A DNA stretch of 64,000 nt, taken from assembly GCA_019262145.1 (NCBI GenBank), contig CP076745.1, positions 1,423,093 through 1,487,092 of the forward strand. The letters run 5' to 3'. The notes beneath the pieces are model-generated. The model saw nothing but the letters and a program-made list of their open reading frames with translations, had not been told where the DNA came from and ran no database searches. Of the stretch, positions 48,174-57,632 are shown one piece after another; the stretch's first letter is position 1, and each line of letters begins with the position of its first letter. The position numbers and the translations under genes are program-made. Source of the DNA: Candidatus Methanogranum gryphiswaldense (GTDB taxonomy: Archaea; Thermoplasmatota; Thermoplasmata; Methanomassiliicoccales; Methanomethylophilaceae).

Positions 48174-50357
48174 TCAGCTTATGAAGAGCAGTTCTCTGTA
48201 CTTGGGCATGGGCCACATCTGGTCATCAACTATCATCTCAAGCGCGTCGAGATGTTTCCTGATTGCCTCGATGCTAGGTACGATCTTGTCGTGGAACTCC
48301 ACGGCCTTCTCGCGCTCATTCTCAATTCCATGTAATTTCACACAGAGACTGTCCATCTCGGAGGCCAGGTCCATTGCCGCTGACACGCACTCAGAGATCT
48401 CTTTTATCTGCTTGCGCTCGTGAGAAGACAATTGCTCGAATTCCGTCTTTGAGAACAGCTCCTTGAGCTTGAACACGTTGTCCAACAGCAGGGACTGATA
48501 CTCGATCGCAACTGGGATCAGATGGTTGAGTGCCATGTCACTTATGGTCTTCGCCTCTATCTCGACCTTCTTGCAGTAGATCTCCCAAAGAACCTCTTTC
48601 CTTGCATCAAGCTCGACCTCCGTCAAGACCTTCGTATCCTTGTAGATCTTGATTGTCTTCTTAGATGTGAATGCATCGTAGATCACTGGAACGGAGTTCT
48701 CACAGTCGAGTTTGCGACGTTTTGCCTCGATCCTCCACTCTTCGGAGTATCCGTTTCCATCGAAGCATACATCCTTGCATGCCCTGTATGTCTCACGGAC
48801 CTCGTCAAGGACGGCCTGCATTACAGGTGTTCCGGATGCGATCCTCTTATCGACCGCTATCTTGAACTGCTTAAGCTGGTATGCAACGATCGTGTTGAGT
48901 ACTGCCAGCGGTGCACCGCAGTTGGCCGAGGAACCCACGGCCCTGAACTCGAATCTGTTGCCTGTGAACGCGAACGGCGAGGTTCTGTTCCTATCGGTGT
49001 TGTCCACCAATAATTCAGGAACCTGCGGGATTCCGAGGCTGTAGCCTTTCTTCTCACTGATCTTGACCATGTCCTTGGTGTGGAGCAGCTCCTCAAAGAC
49101 CTGGCTAACCTGTACTCCTAAGAAGGAGGATATGATCGCCGGGGGTGCCTCGTTGGCCCCTAATCTGTGGGCATTGGAGGCTGTCATGATGGATGCTTTC
49201 AGCAACGAATCGTTGTCATAGACGGCCTTGAGCACATTGGCCATGAACGTGAGGAATCTGAGGTTCTCTTCGTCCGTCTTTCCAGGGGACATGAGGCCGA
49301 TGCCGTCTTCTGTTCCAAGGGACCAGTTACAGTGCTTTCCGGATCCGTTTACCCCTCCGAATGGTTTCTCGTGGAGAAGTACCTTGAATCCGTGACGCTC
49401 TGCGACCTGCTTCATGATGGACATGAGGAGAAGGTTATGATCGACCGCGAGGTTGACCTCCTCGTAGACTGGTGCGATCTCGAACTGGTTGGGTGCGACC
49501 TCGTTGTGCCTGGTCTTGACAGGTATCCCGAGTTTGTATGCCTCGTACTCCAGATCCTTCATGAACTCTAAAGCCCTGGAAGGGATCAAAGCGAAATAGT
49601 GGTCCTCGAGCTGCTGATTCTTCGCACTGTTATGTCCCTGAAGCGTACGCTCGGTAAGGATCAGGTCAGGGCGTTGTGCGTAAAGCGCAGAATCGATCAG
49701 GAAGTACTCCTGTTCCCATCCGAGATAGGAATTGACCCTGGCGTTCTCCATTCCGAAGTACTTGAGTACATCGGCGGTCGCCTTGGATACAGCAGAAACG
49801 GATTTCAAGAGCGGTGTCTTGTAATCCAGTGCCTCTCCTGTGTATGATATGAAAACTGTGGGGATGCAAAGACAGTCGCCCATTATGAATGCTGGAGACG
49901 AGGGGTCCCAAGCTGTGTATCCTCTGGCCTCGAAGGTATTCCTTAGACCTCCGCTGGGGAACGAGGATGCATCTGGCTCCTGCTGGCAGAGAAGTTTCCC
50001 GCTGAAACTCTCTATTGATTCTCCCTGTCCGTGTGGTTCCGCAAAGGAGTCGTGCTTCTCTGCAGTTCCGCCTGTCAGTGGCTGGAACCAGTGCGTGTAG
50101 TGTGTTGCTCCCATGTCCATGGCCCAGCGCTTCATGCCTGCGGCAACATGTTCAGCAACAGATTTGTCCAATGTCGCTCCCTGTTCGATTGACTCGTACA
50201 CGATCCTCCTCGTTTCGGAGGATAGGTATTTTCTCATTGTCGCTCTGTTGAAAACATTGCATCCGTAGTAGTCAGATGTTGCAGGTGCTGGAGGCTCAAC
50301 GACGACCGGCGCCTTTTTGAACGCTTCTTCGACGGCTTTGAATCTGCTGTTTGCCAT
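48174..50357 (-). CDS. glnN: Glutamine synthetase type III
   Basis: 727 residues, as long as the GSIII enzymes of Bacteroides and other gut bacteria and far longer than archaeal GSI (~450). Catalytic segments: GWEQEYFLID, RHNEVAPNQFEIAPVYE, HEKPFGGVNGSGKHCNWSLG and RTSPFAFTGNRFEFRAVGSSANCGAP. An N-terminal GSIII-specific region includes FNRATMRKYL and HWFQPLTGGTAEKHD. Fixes ammonia onto glutamate with ATP. It lies just upstream of gltB on the same strand, 11 bases before the preferred start, forming a GS-GOGAT operon. TATA-like GATTTATATTTG lies about 25 bases upstream. Very probably of bacterial origin. Confidence 0.95.
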   Translation of the reverse strand: MANSRFKAVEEAFKKAPVVVEPPAPATSDYYGCNVFNRATMRKYLSSETRRIVYESIEQGATLDKSVAEHVAAGMKRWAMDMGATHYTHWFQPLTGGTAEKHDSFAEPHGQGESIESFSGKLLCQQEPDASSFPSGGLRNTFEARGYTAWDPSSPAFIMGDCLCIPTVFISYTGEALDYKTPLLKSVSAVSKATADVLKYFGMENARVNSYLGWEQEYFLIDSALYAQRPDLILTERTLQGHNSAKNQQLEDHYFALIPSRALEFMKDLEYEAYKLGIPVKTRHNEVAPNQFEIAPVYEEVNLAVDHNLLLMSIMKQVAERHGFKVLLHEKPFGGVNGSGKHCNWSLGTEDGIGLMSPGKTDEENLRFLTFMANVLKAVYDNDSLLKASIMTASNAHRLGANEAPPAIISSFLGVQVSQVFEELLHTKDMVKISEKKGYSLGIPQVPELLVDNTDRNRTSPFAFTGNRFEFRAVGSSANCGAPLAVLNTIVAYQLKQFKIAVDKRIASGTPVMQAVLDEVRETYRACKDVCFDGNGYSEEWRIEAKRRKLDCENSVPVIYDAFTSKKTIKIYKDTKVLTEVELDARKEVLWEIYCKKVEIEAKTISDMALNHLIPVAIEYQSLLLDNVFKLKELFSKTEFEQLSSHERKQIKEISECVSAAMDLASEMDSLCVKLHGIENEREKAVEFHDKIVPSIEAIRKHLDALEMIVDDQMWPMPKYRELLFIS

Positions 50358-50613: not shown

Positions 50614-51420
50614 ATGAAGTACCGTATTGGTGAATTCTCAAAGATGGCAAAGATGTCTGTCAAGACTCTGAGATACTATGACGAGATCGGATTGCTCAAA
50701 CCCAGCAAGGTGGATGGATGGAATGGATACAGATATTACTCCACAGAACAACTGGGTACCATACAGACCATATTCTTGTACAGGGATGCGGGCCTATCCA
50801 TCGATGAAACAAAGCAGATGCTGCTCGGACATGATATCAAAGGACTCTTGGAATCAAGAAGGGACGAACTTACCACAGAAAGGGAAAGGATCAGCACGGA
50901 ACTCTCAAATTTGGAGAGAATAATAATGAACGAGAAAAAGAACGAACACAATGCCATAGTAAAGGACATCCCAGGATGTGTGGTCTATTGCGGAAAAGGA
51001 AAGATTGCCAATTTCCAAGAGATGACAAAATTCATATTGGGGACCGCAGAGGAATGTCTCGAAGCCAATCCAGGACTGGAATGCGATCCTTCTAATTACT
51101 GTTTCGTGACATACTTGGACAAAGAGTTCAAGGATCGGGAGATCTCGATTGAATATTCTCAAGCCGTAAAAAGAACCGGTATTGAGACAAAGAACATAAC
51201 TTTCAGAAAACTTGAACCTGTGACCGCGATATGCGTGATGCATAAAGGAAGTTACAACAAACTAGGCAACGCCTATTCTTGCGCTCTGGAATTCATAGAA
51301 GAAAATGAATACCAGGTGTGTGAAAATCCGAGAGAATGCTATATCGCAGGATGCTGGAATAGAGACAATGAATCAGATTATCTTACCGAGATACAGATAC
51401 CGATAAAAAAGATGGACTGA
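50614..51420 (+). CDS. MerR-family regulator with GyrI-like effector domain (BmrR-like)
   Basis: 268 residues. The N-terminal MerR winged helix is complete: YRIGEFSKMAKMSVKTLRYYDEIGLLKPS, GYRYYSTEQL; a dimerisation coiled coil spans about 75-110. The C-terminal part (~120-268) matches the GyrI/BmrR-type ligand-binding domain, with VTAICVMHKGSYNKLGNAY and ECYIAGCWNRDNESDYLTEIQIPI. MerR proteins normally twist bacterial promoters, so one here with a TATA promoter is unusual. Targets beyond its own gene are not evident; glnN and the SPFH operon flank it. Confidence 0.88.
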   Translation: MKYRIGEFSKMAKMSVKTLRYYDEIGLLKPSKVDGWNGYRYYSTEQLGTIQTIFLYRDAGLSIDETKQMLLGHDIKGLLESRRDELTTERERISTELSNLERIIMNEKKNEHNAIVKDIPGCVVYCGKGKIANFQEMTKFILGTAEECLEANPGLECDPSNYCFVTYLDKEFKDREISIEYSQAVKRTGIETKNITFRKLEPVTAICVMHKGSYNKLGNAYSCALEFIEENEYQVCENPRECYIAGCWNRDNESDYLTEIQIPIKKMD

Positions 51421-51522
51421 TCCCTTCGAACGCTCAGGTGTATATAAACCAATTATCTTCACAATTTATTACTTGGATAAACTAAATAATACAAAGACAC
51501 ACTTCACCTTATTAGTGAGAAT

Positions 51523-52449
51523 ATGGCATTCCTGTTCAAATCTGGAGATGAATTGTTTGACGAGGGAGTAGACCTCGTAAAACGTAAAGAGTACAATAAA
51601 GCCAGATCAAACTTTGAAAAGTGCGTTCAAAAAGGCACTACAAATTCCAACCTTGCAACTACGTACATATCGATCATATCGATGATCAGCGATCCGAATA
51701 ATCCGAATGTGTACACGGCGTTGGCCAAAAATCTGAGATCTAGCAACACGCCCACTTTCGAATTCGGACTGACACAGGTTGAATCCGAGAAACTGGCGGA
51801 TGAGTGTGACCTTGTCGCTGAACGCATTGTCCTTATGGCAAAAAATGGCAATGCGGATGTCAGGGAACAGAAAGGTAAAGATCTCATCCAGCTCGGTCAA
51901 AAGTATCAGATGAAGCTTGGAAAGGACACACTAAAAACCAATGAGCTGATAAACGGTGACACCGCCACATCAGGTATCAAAGAATCTCTGAGCATCCAAG
52001 CACTCGGATATGAGACGCTCGCATCTGCATCTGTTCTAACTGATCCTAAAAAAGCCGCTGAATATCTGCAGAACGCTTACAACTACCGTAAACAGGCCGG
52101 AGATGACGGATCCCATGATATGGAACTCATTCAGTCCTACTCTAGGTCCGCAAAATGCTGGATCTGTGGAAGGACCACAACCGGTGAAGGCATACACTTC
52201 GTAACCATGTCCAGCGAGATCACCCCCTTCATGAAATCCGCACAGGATGACCTACTCAAATCAGCACCTGCTGATTTTGAATCGGTATACGTCTGCAGAC
52301 CATGTTACTCGGCGATCTCTAGAAGATCGGATGCGATCGCCAATAAATACTATCAGGACGCGATAAAAGACCTCCGCGAAACAGAGATGAGACTTCGTTT
52401 GGAGATCGCAGAGGTTCGCGCATCCGTTGCCATGGTAAGGATGAGGTAA
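51523..52449 (+). CDS. Repeat/zinc-finger protein, first gene of SPFH operon
   Basis: 308 residues. The N-terminus (about 5-60) looks like a TPR hairpin pair (LFDEGVDLVKRKEYNKARSN). A later stretch, ALGYETLASASVL...AAEYLQNAYNYRKQAG, is another helical repeat. Residues ~213-265 hold a two-part zinc site, CWICGR and CRPCY, separated by about 45 residues, followed by a C-terminal helix. A TATA-like GTGTATATAAACC near 51438-51450 probably drives the whole run to 56038. No named family recognised; the role is inferred from its partners as a cytoplasmic scaffold. Confidence 0.72.
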   Translation: MAFLFKSGDELFDEGVDLVKRKEYNKARSNFEKCVQKGTTNSNLATTYISIISMISDPNNPNVYTALAKNLRSSNTPTFEFGLTQVESEKLADECDLVAERIVLMAKNGNADVREQKGKDLIQLGQKYQMKLGKDTLKTNELINGDTATSGIKESLSIQALGYETLASASVLTDPKKAAEYLQNAYNYRKQAGDDGSHDMELIQSYSRSAKCWICGRTTTGEGIHFVTMSSEITPFMKSAQDDLLKSAPADFESVYVCRPCYSAISRRSDAIANKYYQDAIKDLRETEMRLRLEIAEVRASVAMVRMR

Positions 52450-52460
52450 GGTGAAAGATT

Positions 52461-53999
52461 TTGGATGAAATGATCGCTCTAAGGTGCAAACATTGCGGCG
52501 CACCACTCGATAAAAAGGATCTGGAATCCGATTCACCTTTCGTGACGTGCCAATCGTGCGGTACGACACAGCAGAGAATGGATGCGAAAGCCTATCTCGA
52601 CCAGATGATGGGGCAGATCCAGACATGGATCAGCAAATCCATCCCAGGCGGATTCTCCATGGCTCAGTCGGAGAACGTGGACTCTGTTGCAAGATACAAC
52701 ATATTCGTCACGAACATAAAACCGAAGATAGAGACGGAGTACAGCGAATACAGGTTCGCAATAAACACCCTCCTGTCCAACCCGCTCATAGTATTACCGT
52801 TCACCACCGATGCCTCAATCAAAGCCTGTCACGAATCCAATCAGGCATTCGAGTTCAACGCAAAGGCGAAGAGCATTGAGGCATTGGCTGTTGACAACAA
52901 TAGCATGTCCTTGGTAAAAGGTGCAGAGAATATCGCGACCGCTTACGCACTGCTCATAAACAACACCAAATTGTTACATGAGGATAAACCCGGAAGGTAT
53001 ATTCTGCTCAGCAATAATTTCACTGAAGCAGCAAAATCGTTCGCATCGATCAAAGGATATGAATTGGCAGCTCAACGTTTCGAAGCACTAGCGATCGTTT
53101 GTAACGGATGCGAGAAACTACTGAACGGCGATGTAATGAGTGCGATGCCGATGTTTGAAAGCGGGCAGACAAAATTGAGTGGCATCAAAGATAAGGTCCT
53201 TTCGGATATGAACCTCGGCATAATGTACCAGGCTGTGGATATGGAGATCTCCCAAACAAAGATACTGGCAGATATTGCTGGCTTTGTAACTAACGGGGTC
53301 TCTGATGACCCACTTGTTGTGCTCAACGTCATCAGAAAAGTATTCGGATTCAAATTCACAAAAAGCGGGGACTGGGGATATCTTCTTGGAAACAAGGACA
53401 GATATAACGAGATATTCAGCTATATCTCGGCCATAATGAAGGCTAAGAACGGTGGGTCATTACCTATCGTTTCTGGTTCAGGACAGGTCCTGGTCCCATT
53501 CTGGGATGTGGATCTGAGATATAGTTTCCAGACCGGTGCGATGTGGAAGAAGAAGAGTGTGGAGGTCGTAGAAGATATCCTGCTGCCTGCGGATTTCGTC
53601 ATCGATGATGCTTGTCTCAGCGACCCTGCATCAGCGTTGACTGATATTTTCGCACTACGTCCGGAAAAAAGCATACTCTCGGGCATAAAAGGAACGGAGA
53701 CCAGCATCAGCGGCGGAGAAGGGATATCAAAGATCTCACTATTCGCTGAGAACACGCCGGGCGGCAGAAAGGTGGTCGTTCCTTTAAGCACAAAGAGAGA
53801 GGCAGAAAAGTTGGTCTCGGACTACCTGAAACAACGTACGAGCAGCGATTCTCAACTGAAATTGAGTAAACCCTACGTCAAGGGATTGATATACATACCC
53901 TGTGAAGTTGATAGCAATTTGAAAGTACCAGCCGGATTCGGATCTCTGGTCCCGAAAAGGATCAAGAGAACCAACGTTTCCGATCTGATAATCGTGTAA
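52461..53999 (+). CDS. Zinc-ribbon protein of SPFH operon (YdjG-like position)
   Basis: 512 residues. N-terminal zinc ribbon: CKHCG...CQSCGTTQQ at about residues 9-36. A helical middle (about 60-300) contains TPR-like segments (YELAAQRFEALAIVCNGCEKLL). The C-terminal ~200 residues are mixed strand/helix, including QVLVPFWDVDLRYSF and a region ending GLIYIPCEV, which resembles the recurring YdjG-type module following zinc ribbons (tentative). TTG 52461 is preferred because AAGGTG is eight bases upstream; ATG 52470 is the alternative. The gene starts 11 bases after the previous stop. Confidence 0.72.
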   Translation: MDEMIALRCKHCGAPLDKKDLESDSPFVTCQSCGTTQQRMDAKAYLDQMMGQIQTWISKSIPGGFSMAQSENVDSVARYNIFVTNIKPKIETEYSEYRFAINTLLSNPLIVLPFTTDASIKACHESNQAFEFNAKAKSIEALAVDNNSMSLVKGAENIATAYALLINNTKLLHEDKPGRYILLSNNFTEAAKSFASIKGYELAAQRFEALAIVCNGCEKLLNGDVMSAMPMFESGQTKLSGIKDKVLSDMNLGIMYQAVDMEISQTKILADIAGFVTNGVSDDPLVVLNVIRKVFGFKFTKSGDWGYLLGNKDRYNEIFSYISAIMKAKNGGSLPIVSGSGQVLVPFWDVDLRYSFQTGAMWKKKSVEVVEDILLPADFVIDDACLSDPASALTDIFALRPEKSILSGIKGTETSISGGEGISKISLFAENTPGGRKVVVPLSTKREAEKLVSDYLKQRTSSDSQLKLSKPYVKGLIYIPCEVDSNLKVPAGFGSLVPKRIKRTNVSDLIIV

Positions 54000-54012
54000 G
54001 GAGAAGAATAAA

Positions 54013-54390
54013 ATGACAGAACTGAACAACAGAACGCTTTCAGCGGTCTCGCTTGGAGTGTTCATAATCGCACTTGCGATCGGATTCCTTGCCTACATGG
54101 CATTGGATAAGGGTGTGCTCGTGATCCTATGGGTCACAGCGCTGATATTCGGAGTGGCCCTATGCCTCATGTCAAGTCTATTCAGCGATAAGACCACCGG
54201 CGCTGGACCTTCCGACAAGATGTACAGACTTGCAGTTGGTGCATTCGTTGCCTTGGTCGGCCTGGTAGGCTTGATCTATACTGCAACGACTGTTGACTGG
54301 ATATACGTACTCGTGATATTCCTTATCGGCATCGCGCTGATTGGAATCACTGTAGCATTAATAAATAACAAAAAGGAGGCATCACTTTGA
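54013..54390 (+). CDS. Small four-TM membrane protein of SPFH operon
   Basis: 125 residues, four hydrophobic segments (about 12-33, 38-58, 74-93, 97-117) with a short polar loop around SDKTTGAGPSDK. GGAGAA precedes the ATG. Its stop overlaps the TTG start of the next gene, indicating co-translation. Probably the membrane anchor or sensor of the complex encoded by the operon (inference). Confidence 0.75.
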   Translation: MTELNNRTLSAVSLGVFIIALAIGFLAYMALDKGVLVILWVTALIFGVALCLMSSLFSDKTTGAGPSDKMYRLAVGAFVALVGLVGLIYTATTVDWIYVLVIFLIGIALIGITVALINNKKEASL

Positions 54391-54917
54391 CAATCGATCA
54401 AACGATCGACAAAAAAATGAACGATAACAGATCGCTCATAGAGAGGATATCCCTTTACATCCCCGGATATAAGGGTTACAGACAAAAGAATCTCAGAAGG
54501 GACGAGGATAGAGCCGTAAGGGGAGAGGTCGCACGTGAACTGGAAGCAGTAAAGAACGACCTTGTTACCGTACAGAGGGCTACCGTCGGAAACCTAGAAC
54601 TGATGAGAGAGACAGAAAGGATCAGATCCAAAGCTGACAAGTACTATATAGATGTGAAAAAAGCAGTTGCTGGATACAGCGCATTCCACGACTCGGTGAA
54701 AATAATGGAAAAAGAGCTCGACGGCCTTATCCAATGGGATGCAAAACTCATGGATGATGTTCAATCTCTGAAAACACAGACGAAGGCCATAGTCGACGCC
54801 ATTGATAACGGTAACACCGCACTTAAAGGCCAGCTCAGAGACTTAGAAAGGACCATCGACCAACTCTCTGAAGACTACCTCGGAAGAGAGAGCATAATGA
54901 AAGGATTCAAGGAGTGA
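54387..54917 (+). CDS. Coiled-coil protein of SPFH operon
   Basis: 176 residues. The N-terminus has SLYIPGYKGYRQKNLRRDEDR, a motif of the kind IPGYxGYxxKxxRRxxDR that I associate with proteins encoded beside SPFH genes; the remaining ~120 residues are charged helices likely to form a long coiled coil, in the size range of a short PspA-like protein. The start is TTG 54387, nine bases after a strong AAAGGAGG, overlapping the preceding stop. It ends five bases before the SPFH gene. PspA homology is not established from sequence alone. Confidence 0.75.
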   Translation: MTIDQTIDKKMNDNRSLIERISLYIPGYKGYRQKNLRRDEDRAVRGEVARELEAVKNDLVTVQRATVGNLELMRETERIRSKADKYYIDVKKAVAGYSAFHDSVKIMEKELDGLIQWDAKLMDDVQSLKTQTKAIVDAIDNGNTALKGQLRDLERTIDQLSEDYLGRESIMKGFKE

Positions 54918-54922
54918 ACTGA

Positions 54923-56038
54923 ATGGCAGAAAAAAAGACCAACGTAGTATTCTGGGAAAACCAGGGACCTGATGATATAATCTACAGGTCAGAGAACGAT
55001 GACCTCAGAACTATCACCTCTGTGACAGTTCCAGAACACGCAGTAGCCCTTTTCATAAGGGATGGAAAACTCGAAGGCGTGCTCGAACCTGGCAGACATG
55101 TGATCACCTCGGCAAATATCCCCTGGCTGACCAAACTGTACAACATGGCGCTGGGTTACAAAGAAACCCCATTCAAGGTTTGGGTAGTCTACATATCATT
55201 GAAGATCTTCAATGGAAAATGGGGCATCAGAAGCATGATGAAGGCCGCCAATGAATATCAGGTCCCAATCACGCTTATGGCCAACGGTGACTACCAATTC
55301 CGCATAAACGACGTATCTGTGTTCTACACACAGGTGTTAGGCGGAATGACCCAGTACACAACAGGCAGCATCAACTCATTCATGAAGAGCTTCATCAATG
55401 AACAGATCATCCAACAGTTGACCTCGATGTTCTACATGGACATCATGAACAACATCGAGAAAGCATCGACGAGCACGAAAATACTCATCGAACAATACTT
55501 CACTCAGAGAGGAATAGAACTTCTGGCACTGAAGATCAACGAAGTTGCTACCACTGAAGAAGAAAAACAGAAAGTATTCGAATATCTCCAATTCAGTAGC
55601 TCTAAAGGAGAATCGTTCAAGAAATACGAGGTCATGGATAGGATGGCCGATGCGATCGGAACATCCCAAGGAGGCGCAGCAATGGGTACTGGAATGCTAT
55701 TGTTCCCACAGATGTATCAACAGCTTCAGCAACAACCGGTTCAAGGTGTACAGTCACAGCAACAGTCCCAGGCACAAAAAGTCATGTGTCCTGCTTGCGG
55801 ATCCCTCAACGACTATCCGTACAAATTCTGCAACAACTGCGGACAAGCATCACCCATGATGAATCGCACTCAGCCGAGCCCTGCTACTACAGTTGCTGCT
55901 CCGGCACCAGCACAAAATGGTGCACCGGCGAATGACTCTCCAAAGGCATTCAAGATCTGTCCATACTGCGGACATGATCTTAGCGGATTGCCTAAGGTAC
56001 CTAAATTCTGTCCGTATTGTTCTGAACAACTAAATTGA
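54923..56038 (+). CDS. SPFH-domain zinc-ribbon protein (YdjI/virion-core-like)
   Basis: 371 residues. Residues ~10-230 form an SPFH/band-7-like domain of the YdjI type: VVFWENQGPDDIIYRSENDD at the start, then HAVALFIRDGKLEGVLEPGRH. A Gln-rich linker leads to two zinc ribbons near the C-terminus: CPACGSL...FCNNCGQ and CPYCGHD...FCPYCSEQ. Bacillus YdjI has the same SPFH-plus-ribbon plan and works with the PspA homologue YdjF at the membrane. Last gene of the operon, followed by a strong terminator. Confidence 0.87.
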   Translation: MAEKKTNVVFWENQGPDDIIYRSENDDLRTITSVTVPEHAVALFIRDGKLEGVLEPGRHVITSANIPWLTKLYNMALGYKETPFKVWVVYISLKIFNGKWGIRSMMKAANEYQVPITLMANGDYQFRINDVSVFYTQVLGGMTQYTTGSINSFMKSFINEQIIQQLTSMFYMDIMNNIEKASTSTKILIEQYFTQRGIELLALKINEVATTEEEKQKVFEYLQFSSSKGESFKKYEVMDRMADAIGTSQGGAAMGTGMLLFPQMYQQLQQQPVQGVQSQQQSQAQKVMCPACGSLNDYPYKFCNNCGQASPMMNRTQPSPATTVAAPAPAQNGAPANDSPKAFKICPYCGHDLSGLPKVPKFCPYCSEQLN

Positions 56039-56044
56039 GCTTTA

Positions 56045-56077
56045 TGGCCGGCTCACGCCGGCCAATTTCATTTTTTT
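56045..56077 (+). terminator. Terminator of the SPFH operon
   Basis: TGGCCGGC/GCCGGCCA perfect 8-bp stem with a TCAC loop (56045-56064), followed by seven T at 56071-56077. Confidence 0.8.
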
Positions 56078-56159: not shown

Positions 56160-57632
56160 ATGACCGATGTGGAATATGGAGATAAGTATGCTGTATTCAT
56201 CACCGATACAGGAATAAAATTCTTGACAAACGAAGTAAGTCTCCAAATTATGGAACTCTTAACACGTTCTGGAATGACCGTCACCGAGATCTCTGAATTG
56301 TTAGGACAGCAAAAAACATCCATACAATCAAACATGAAAAAACTTGAAAGATGGGATTTCATTTCATCTTACATTGATGAGAACGACAAAAGAAAGACCG
56401 TATATGTACCATCATCAGTAAAAATACTCTGCCCGGTAATACCATCGCTGGACATTGACTCCGTCGAAAAAGATATCATTGACACGATAAACAAAGAAAA
56501 TGAACAGTACAGGGGCATAATACTGTTGATGATCATTGAAGCCATGAAACTTGGAATAGATCTGAGCCCGTTGATGCTGAGGGGCGGATCACTTTTAGCA
56601 AAATATGCTGGAAAGGACTTTAAGAACATGGATACGGGAACACTTCTTCGTACAATGGAGAAATATTTTGCAGAGGCCAAATTCCCAACAACAGAGTTGT
56701 CGTTTAAAAATGGAGACCTGCACGCAAAGATACACATGGACCGTAATCTAAAAAAATCGTTGATGATGACTCATACGATGATCCTCGGGTATATGATGGA
56801 GGCAATAAGCCTCAATACTGGCGTTAGATACTGTCTAGGATATGTCAAAGAGGACTCAGATGGTATAACACATGCAATGATAACGCCGTATATCGGCAAA
56901 ATATCAAATGGAACTATAATTGATGATATGATCAAAGAGGATACCTACAGCGGATGGCCTCTATCCATATACTATGTGAATGGAAAATCAGTGCTTTTTG
57001 GAAATGAAGTACAGGTCAATATACTTCGGACATTAGATAAATCACAAATGTCCCTAAAAGGATTATCGAACAGCCTCAATATCCCGCCAGTAACTGTTCA
57101 TACCAACATGAATAAACTCGTAGAATCAGGCGTCATCAAATCGGATGCTGCTAGATCATCCAAGTATGTACGTTATGGTCTATCCGGAGAACCGGCAATA
57201 ATTGCTACAGAAAAAGAACCTCGTCTCAGGATAGAGATGGATGCATTATTCAAAAAATACGCAAATAGCCCATCCCAATACTACAAAGCGTTATTCAGAT
57301 ATGTCAACCACTCTTTTCGCCTTGTCGGATTCGACATAAGCAATATAATCAGACACATAGGCATGAACATCTCCGATTCAACGATAGAAGATGACCCGAA
57401 TATCTCTGCCATGGAATTCCTGAACACCATGTGTGAAAAGAACATGGGCCTCGGATTCAAACCATCTATAGTGACGTATGTACCACTTACTATCATACTG
57501 GAGCGTGATGGCCAAACTCTGAGTGAATTTAGATTCATAAAACCCTTCTATGAAGGCCTGTTTAAATTCGGACTCCTAAAACTTACGGGTGATGACTACA
57601 ATATAAGATTCCCCTTCGTTGGTAAAAAATGA
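56160..57632 (+). CDS. Internally duplicated winged-helix regulator
   Basis: 490 residues built from two similar halves. Each begins with a short strand and a winged helix: ITDTGIKFLTNEVSLQIMEL...NMKKLERWDFI (about 15-70) and VNGKSVLFGNEVQVNILRTL...NMNKLVESGVI (about 278-335). After each HTH comes an alpha/beta domain of about 160 residues, resembling a V4R-type or other sensor fold, with similar openings (YRGIILLMIIEAMKLGIDLSPL versus YYKALFRYVNHSFRLVGFDISN). The monomer could thus bind DNA like a dimer. TATA-like ATTTTATACTC lies about 30 bases upstream. It is followed by a palindrome array. Family not named; DNA-binding role well supported. Confidence 0.75.
   Translation: MTDVEYGDKYAVFITDTGIKFLTNEVSLQIMELLTRSGMTVTEISELLGQQKTSIQSNMKKLERWDFISSYIDENDKRKTVYVPSSVKILCPVIPSLDIDSVEKDIIDTINKENEQYRGIILLMIIEAMKLGIDLSPLMLRGGSLLAKYAGKDFKNMDTGTLLRTMEKYFAEAKFPTTELSFKNGDLHAKIHMDRNLKKSLMMTHTMILGYMMEAISLNTGVRYCLGYVKEDSDGITHAMITPYIGKISNGTIIDDMIKEDTYSGWPLSIYYVNGKSVLFGNEVQVNILRTLDKSQMSLKGLSNSLNIPPVTVHTNMNKLVESGVIKSDAARSSKYVRYGLSGEPAIIATEKEPRLRIEMDALFKKYANSPSQYYKALFRYVNHSFRLVGFDISNIIRHIGMNISDSTIEDDPNISAMEFLNTMCEKNMGLGFKPSIVTYVPLTIILERDGQTLSEFRFIKPFYEGLFKFGLLKLTGDDYNIRFPFVGKK

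Follow-up and report, generated by a model that had tools for sequence, protein, structure and literature searches.

A PspA-free operon for an SPFH protein, a helical protein and zinc-ribbon partners in Candidatus Methanogranum gryphiswaldense and related archaea

Five packed genes in the genome of Candidatus Methanogranum gryphiswaldense encode a YdjI-type SPFH protein, a helical-bundle protein, a small membrane protein and two zinc proteins. Their products may form one membrane-surface complex that works like PspA-YdjGHI of Bacillus subtilis but without PspA, a reading for which the chances appear evenly balanced. In the order Methanomassiliicoccales, the gene for the helical protein lies directly upstream of the SPFH gene at 99 of the 104 loci where it was found.

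Organization of the operon

The window, the whole stretch of DNA that was analysed, comprises 64,000 nucleotides of a genome assembled as one contig of 1.517 Mb. The five genes are labelled g1 to g5 in 5' to 3' order, and f1 denotes the family to which this genome belongs, probably Methanomethylophilaceae. The features of the operon, in window coordinates, are:

51441-51448, + strand: TATA box TATATAAA, seen in the sequence about 75 bases 5' of g1
51523-56038, + strand: operon g1-g5, five ORFs on one strand
51523-52449, + strand: g1, 308 amino acids (aa), soluble, helical, with a weak TPR at residues 10-36 and a C-terminal CxxC...CxxC
52156-52305, + strand: zinc-type cysteines of g1, C212, C215, C258 and C261 (CxxC-42-CxxC), invariant in 15 sequences
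52461-53999, + strand: g2, 512 aa, TTG start, N-terminal zinc ribbon and two further domains
52485-52559, + strand: zinc ribbon of g2, C9, C12, C30 and C33 (CxxC-17-CxxC), invariant in 34 aligned sequences
54013-54390, + strand: g3, 125 aa, four transmembrane (TM) segments
54387-54917, + strand: g4, 176 aa, helical-bundle protein, TTG start
54459-54479, + strand: IPGYKGY motif of g4; P26, G30 and Y31 invariant in 78 sequences
54923-56038, + strand: g5, 371 aa, YdjI-type SPFH protein (Band_7_1), two C-terminal zinc ribbons, no TM segment
54995-55582, + strand: SPFH/Band_7_1 domain of g5, residues 25-220, Pfam match
55787-55840, + strand: zinc ribbon 1 of g5, C289, C292, C303 and C306, in 100 of 100 sequences
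55958-56020, + strand: zinc ribbon 2 of g5, C346, C349, C363 and C366, in at least 96 of 100 sequences
56045-56064, + strand: terminator-like stem, 8 bp and G+C-rich, then a T-rich tail, 3' of g5

The first-pass annotation had described a tightly packed set of five genes with one promoter and one strong terminator. Both parts of that description stand: the distances between neighbouring genes from g1 to g5 are 11, 13, -4 and 5 bases, and the set is bounded by the TATA box, which by its sequence is likely to be the archaeal promoter of the operon, and by the stem with its T-rich tail.

Several other genes surround the operon. A 727-aa glutamine synthetase-like gene, named by its sequence, is divergent to it (48174-50357, - strand), and a divergent ORF of 727-732 aa occupies the same place in other genera of f1 (loci L061, L063, L065, L068, L069, L070 and L079), which gives the operon a fixed chromosomal address in many genera of the family. 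Between this gene and the operon is a regulator of the MerR family that carries a GyrI-like ligand domain (50614-51420, + strand); it was rejected as a member of the operon because at L061, in the same genus, it is missing from the stretch that separates g1 from the ORF of glutamine synthetase size. On the 3' side, and also downstream of the operon at L061, is a gene for a protein of 490 aa (56160-57632, + strand) that is built of two winged-helix halves, of which the first matches MsvR (NF053755, 3.3e-26, below the cut-off); by sequence, the product looks like a tandem-duplicated MsvR-like regulator.

Proteins encoded by the operon

The identification of g5 as an SPFH protein had been staked on a profile search, and in that search the match stood: Pfam PF13421 (Band_7_1) recognizes g5 at 2.7e-23 and 83.2 bits, over a curated cut-off of 24. 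No other Band_7_1 protein is encoded in the genome. Both C-terminal sites give zinc-ribbon profile matches, and their cysteines are kept in relatives. With a C-terminal zinc ribbon and no TM helix, g5 has the features that define the YdjI type.

The sole integral membrane protein of the operon is g3, in which four hydrophobic segments were counted, as had been claimed; g1, g2, g4 and g5 have none. The g4 protein matches no Pfam family. In addition to P26, G30 and Y31 of its IPGYKGY motif, D41, R45, D118 and R167 are invariant in the 78 sequences. Its AlphaFold2 (AF2) model (pLDDT 83) has a short helical N-terminus followed by a bundle of four helices.

The descriptions of g1 as a TPR-like zinc protein and of g2 as a zinc-ribbon protein also hold, in that all four cysteines of each are invariant; the match of g1 to Pfam TPR_2 is weak (7.5e-4, below the cut-off). 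The AF2 model of g2 (pLDDT 87) has a helical middle domain (residues 39-330) and a beta/alpha C-terminal domain (334-512). The helical domain has weak profile matches to GID8 (E 0.0015) and to a designed TPR protein (0.22). A fold search with the g2 model placed several HD-PTP Bro1 chains near the top, all with E > 1.5 and not significant. Bro1 domains bind ESCRT-III, and on this modelling a Bro1-like nature of g2 is a lead only.

Conservation of the operon

Co-occurrence in related genomes, on which the first-pass annotation had made its proposal depend, was found at two levels. In 147 genomes of the order searched for g4, this gene was directly upstream of g5 at 99 of 104 loci, with a median spacing of 33 bases as measured between the matched stretches. 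Within f1, g2 preceded g4 by no more than 2 kb at 63 of 70 loci, and the exceptions include short contigs and genomes that have the g1-g2 pair alone. Both g2 and g4 were present in 65 of 102 f1 genomes and neither in 31, with six genomes discordant, counts for which a Fisher test is uncorrected for kinship and includes some incomplete genomes.

The order g1-g2-g3-g4-g5 was kept at all 15 f1 loci examined (the window and 14 others, g2 being split at L080), and the complete set of five is also present in G278 (locus L200), which belongs to a different class of the phylum. The five genes are therefore not a chance run of ORFs. The operon is nevertheless dispensable, since the block is absent from several well-assembled f1 genomes, such as G028, G047 and G104.

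Exchange of partner proteins between lineages

Outside f1, a homologous g4-g5 pair is found with other partners, here called A, B and C, in the sister families of the order, in DHVE2, in Methanomicrobium and in Methanocorpusculum; in the latter three, g4 adjoins g5 at almost every locus whose length allows a verdict. Proteins A and B, of about 247 and 335 aa respectively, each have an N-terminal zinc ribbon and a C-terminal TM segment. They are mutually homologous (hhalign, 100%) and match PepSY/YPEB weakly (E 0.05-0.19). Protein C, of about 196 aa, is a zinc-ribbon protein. The A-B-C genes sit after or before the g4-g5 pair; the order in the sister families is g4, SPFH, two genes for proteins with zinc ribbon and TM segment, and one for a zinc-ribbon protein.

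Within the order, the partners with zinc ribbon and TM segment, B among them, are full length only in families other than f1, and g2 is restricted to f1. The g1-g2 pair, absent from the sister families, stands in for their zinc-ribbon and TM proteins. The first-pass annotation had counted g1 and g2 as two extra proteins, which needs correction: they belong together as a conserved pair, which other Thermoplasmatota (families f7 and f11, loci L194-L199) have by itself. Because no recognised SPFH gene is nearby there, g1-g2 must have a function that is not tied to g5.

Profile comparisons relate some of the partners to each other. The zinc ribbon of g2 has profile matches to those of A, B and C, with a probability of 94% for C, and the C-terminal domains of g2 and C have the motifs VPFW, IPA, EAxxL and YIP in the same order. 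These C-terminal domains score 25-27 against each other, above other families (at most 23) and reversed profiles (at most 18) used as controls. Since the comparison reaches a probability of just 11-17%, homology of g2 and C is suggestive only. Kinship of g1 with A, B, C or g2 was rejected, only cysteine motifs being common to them. A relation of g3 to the TM segments of A and B was likewise rejected, as the probabilities of 5% and 26% (hhalign) are not meaningful for hydrophobic segments.

A second type of operon, g1-g2-SPFH-X, is found in one genus of f1 (g9), at L071 (3759-8098), L072 (3395-7739) and L073 (3623-8090). The X protein has four TM segments and a helical tail, which repeats the theme of TM plus helical parts, and is possibly the functional equivalent of g3 plus g4. 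In a tree of 69 SPFH proteins, those of f1 group with that of G278 (support 100/100), and those of the second operon type join them less surely because of long branches. Long branches also part the f1 SPFH clade from the clade of the g4-SPFH-A-B-C loci. At another f1 locus (L203, 3486-6094), the gene after that for an SPFH protein of a third type (441 aa) encodes a relative of B with 427 aa. This swapping of partners across lineages means that the system is modular: the SPFH protein, usually with g4, is constant, and the zinc and membrane partners are exchangeable.

Comparison with known systems

The YdjI protein of B. subtilis is not itself anchored in the membrane, requires YdjG/H for its placement there, and is in turn required for PspA foci (PMC8581546); YdjG has been described as zinc ribbons with a YpeB-related domain and a TM segment (PMC11237479). 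A likeness of the operon to Bacillus ydjFGHI had been pointed out before and is borne out, in that the PF13421 profile that recognizes g5 also matches in B. subtilis and the architecture in the sister families is close to YdjG/YdjI. Both operons combine a YdjI-type SPFH protein that has a C-terminal zinc ribbon and no TM segment of its own (PMC8581546, PMC11237479) with a zinc-ribbon partner, one or more separate membrane proteins and a helical protein. Unlike pspA-ydjGHI, the window operon is without PspA, PspA_IM30 (PF04012) having no match in the operon or in this genome, and has g4, the four-TM protein g3 and g1-g2 instead. No protein of the operon matches the TPM domain of YdjH, and none has the YdjG-like combination of zinc ribbon, YpeB domain and TM segment. 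The weak PepSY/YPEB matches of A and B in the sister families recall the domain plan of YdjG (PMC11237479).

The archaeal g4-SPFH-A-B-C cassette, for which no name was found in the literature searched, has homologous and adjacent g4 and g5 but replaces g1-g2-g3 with A, B and C. The Meth_adaptin ESCRT systems of Methanobacteriales likewise place a coiled-coil/zinc-ribbon SPFH protein in a predicted membrane-remodelling locus (PMC11188069), whereas here the genome has no Vps4_C match and no adaptin-like gene was recognised in the block. Controls in M. jannaschii and Sulfolobus were matched by Vps4_C, and the frames that it matches weakly in other genomes are 600-785 aa long, as are AAA proteins of the CDC48 type. 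Snf7 gave no match in this genome either, its control being matched only in Sulfolobus and below the cut-off. NCBIfam NF047596 (LIMLP_15305, Leptospira) matches g4 and its relatives over nearly their full length (E 3.5e-8 for g4, to 1.2e-13), but g4 scores far under the family cut-off (33.5 versus 210 bits), so that the profile match indicates remote kinship only.

SPFH/YdjI proteins have been linked with PspA or ESCRT in surveys (PMC9239133, PMC11237479, PMC11188069). Because these started from PspA/PspC or Vps4, a PspA-free SPFH system would have escaped them by design. No paper on SPFH proteins and Methanomassiliicoccales together was found, in a literature search of incomplete coverage; the novelty of the system is a lead, not proof.

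Proposed function and alternatives

The following arrangement is inferred by analogy with B. subtilis. The g5 protein would oligomerise beneath the cytoplasmic membrane, where the four-TM protein g3 would hold it, in the role of YdjG/H. As the obligate partner of the SPFH protein, g4 would take the place of PspA and act as effector or clamp. The alpha-solenoid-like zinc proteins g1 and g2 may dock through zinc ribbons, related ones being present in g2 and g5, and as an adaptor pair could bring clients or signals to the scaffold. The likely task of such a complex would be surveillance or organisation of the membrane under envelope stress; the sensing or repair of membrane damage that the first-pass annotation had suggested would be a role carried over from YdjI, not one read from the sequences.

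The main alternative, rather unlikely, is a quality-control cage like those of prohibitins and HflKC, in which the SPFH protein would be a membrane enclosure closed or anchored by g4 and g3, and g1-g2 would be client adaptors feeding a protease or chaperone encoded elsewhere. SPFH proteins such as HflKC and the prohibitins are assembly and quality-control scaffolds, and both g1, with its weak TPR, and g2, with its GID8 and designed-TPR matches, resemble protein-binding solenoids. However, the block has no conserved protease gene, and the SPFH protein is of the YdjI (Band_7_1) type, not the HflK/C type.

It is improbable that g4 belongs to the PspA/ESCRT-III proteins as a highly divergent member, and that the operon is simply an archaeal Psp/ydj operon. 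Such an identity would fit the position of g4, which adjoins the SPFH gene as pspA does in pspA-ydjGHI, its helical nature and size class, similar to those of PspA, and the near absence of recognised PspA from the order, where it is over the cut-off in only two of 61 genomes. Yet those two genomes (G019 and G021) carry g4 in addition to real PspA, and in Pfam searches at a threshold of 0.01 neither PspA nor Snf7 was hit by any of the 78 relatives of g4. The helices in the AF2 model of g4 form a bundle and are short (22-33 residues), rather than a single long hairpin, and a PDB fold search with this model gave no significant match, PspA, Vipp1 and ESCRT-III being absent among the 50 matches listed. 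Pfam profiles and the AF2 fold comparison thus rule out g4 as a recognisable PspA/ESCRT-III protein, and the earlier statement that the coiled-coil component differs from PspA is upheld.

That the operon serves defence or conflict through a membrane effector is very improbable: presence is patchy within f1, and zinc ribbons and SPFH proteins are known from some conflict systems, but in PADLOC g2 alone gave matches, all of them weak zinc-ribbon ones, and the other four proteins gave none, the locus stays beside the glutamine synthetase gene in many genera, unlike a defence island, and the block has no toxin or nuclease domain.

Implications

The preferred reading, a PspA-free membrane-surface complex, may extend beyond this operon. 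It is conceivable, though somewhat less than evenly probable, that a widespread archaeal scaffold consists of a constant g4-SPFH core and an exchangeable module for sensing and anchoring, and carries out membrane surveillance without an ESCRT-III-fold protein. If the core works as proposed, an SPFH scaffold would be separated from PspA/ESCRT-III, and the conserved g4 would be a directly testable candidate for a PspA substitute. The operon would then encode a candidate envelope-stress machine for gut and sediment methanogens.
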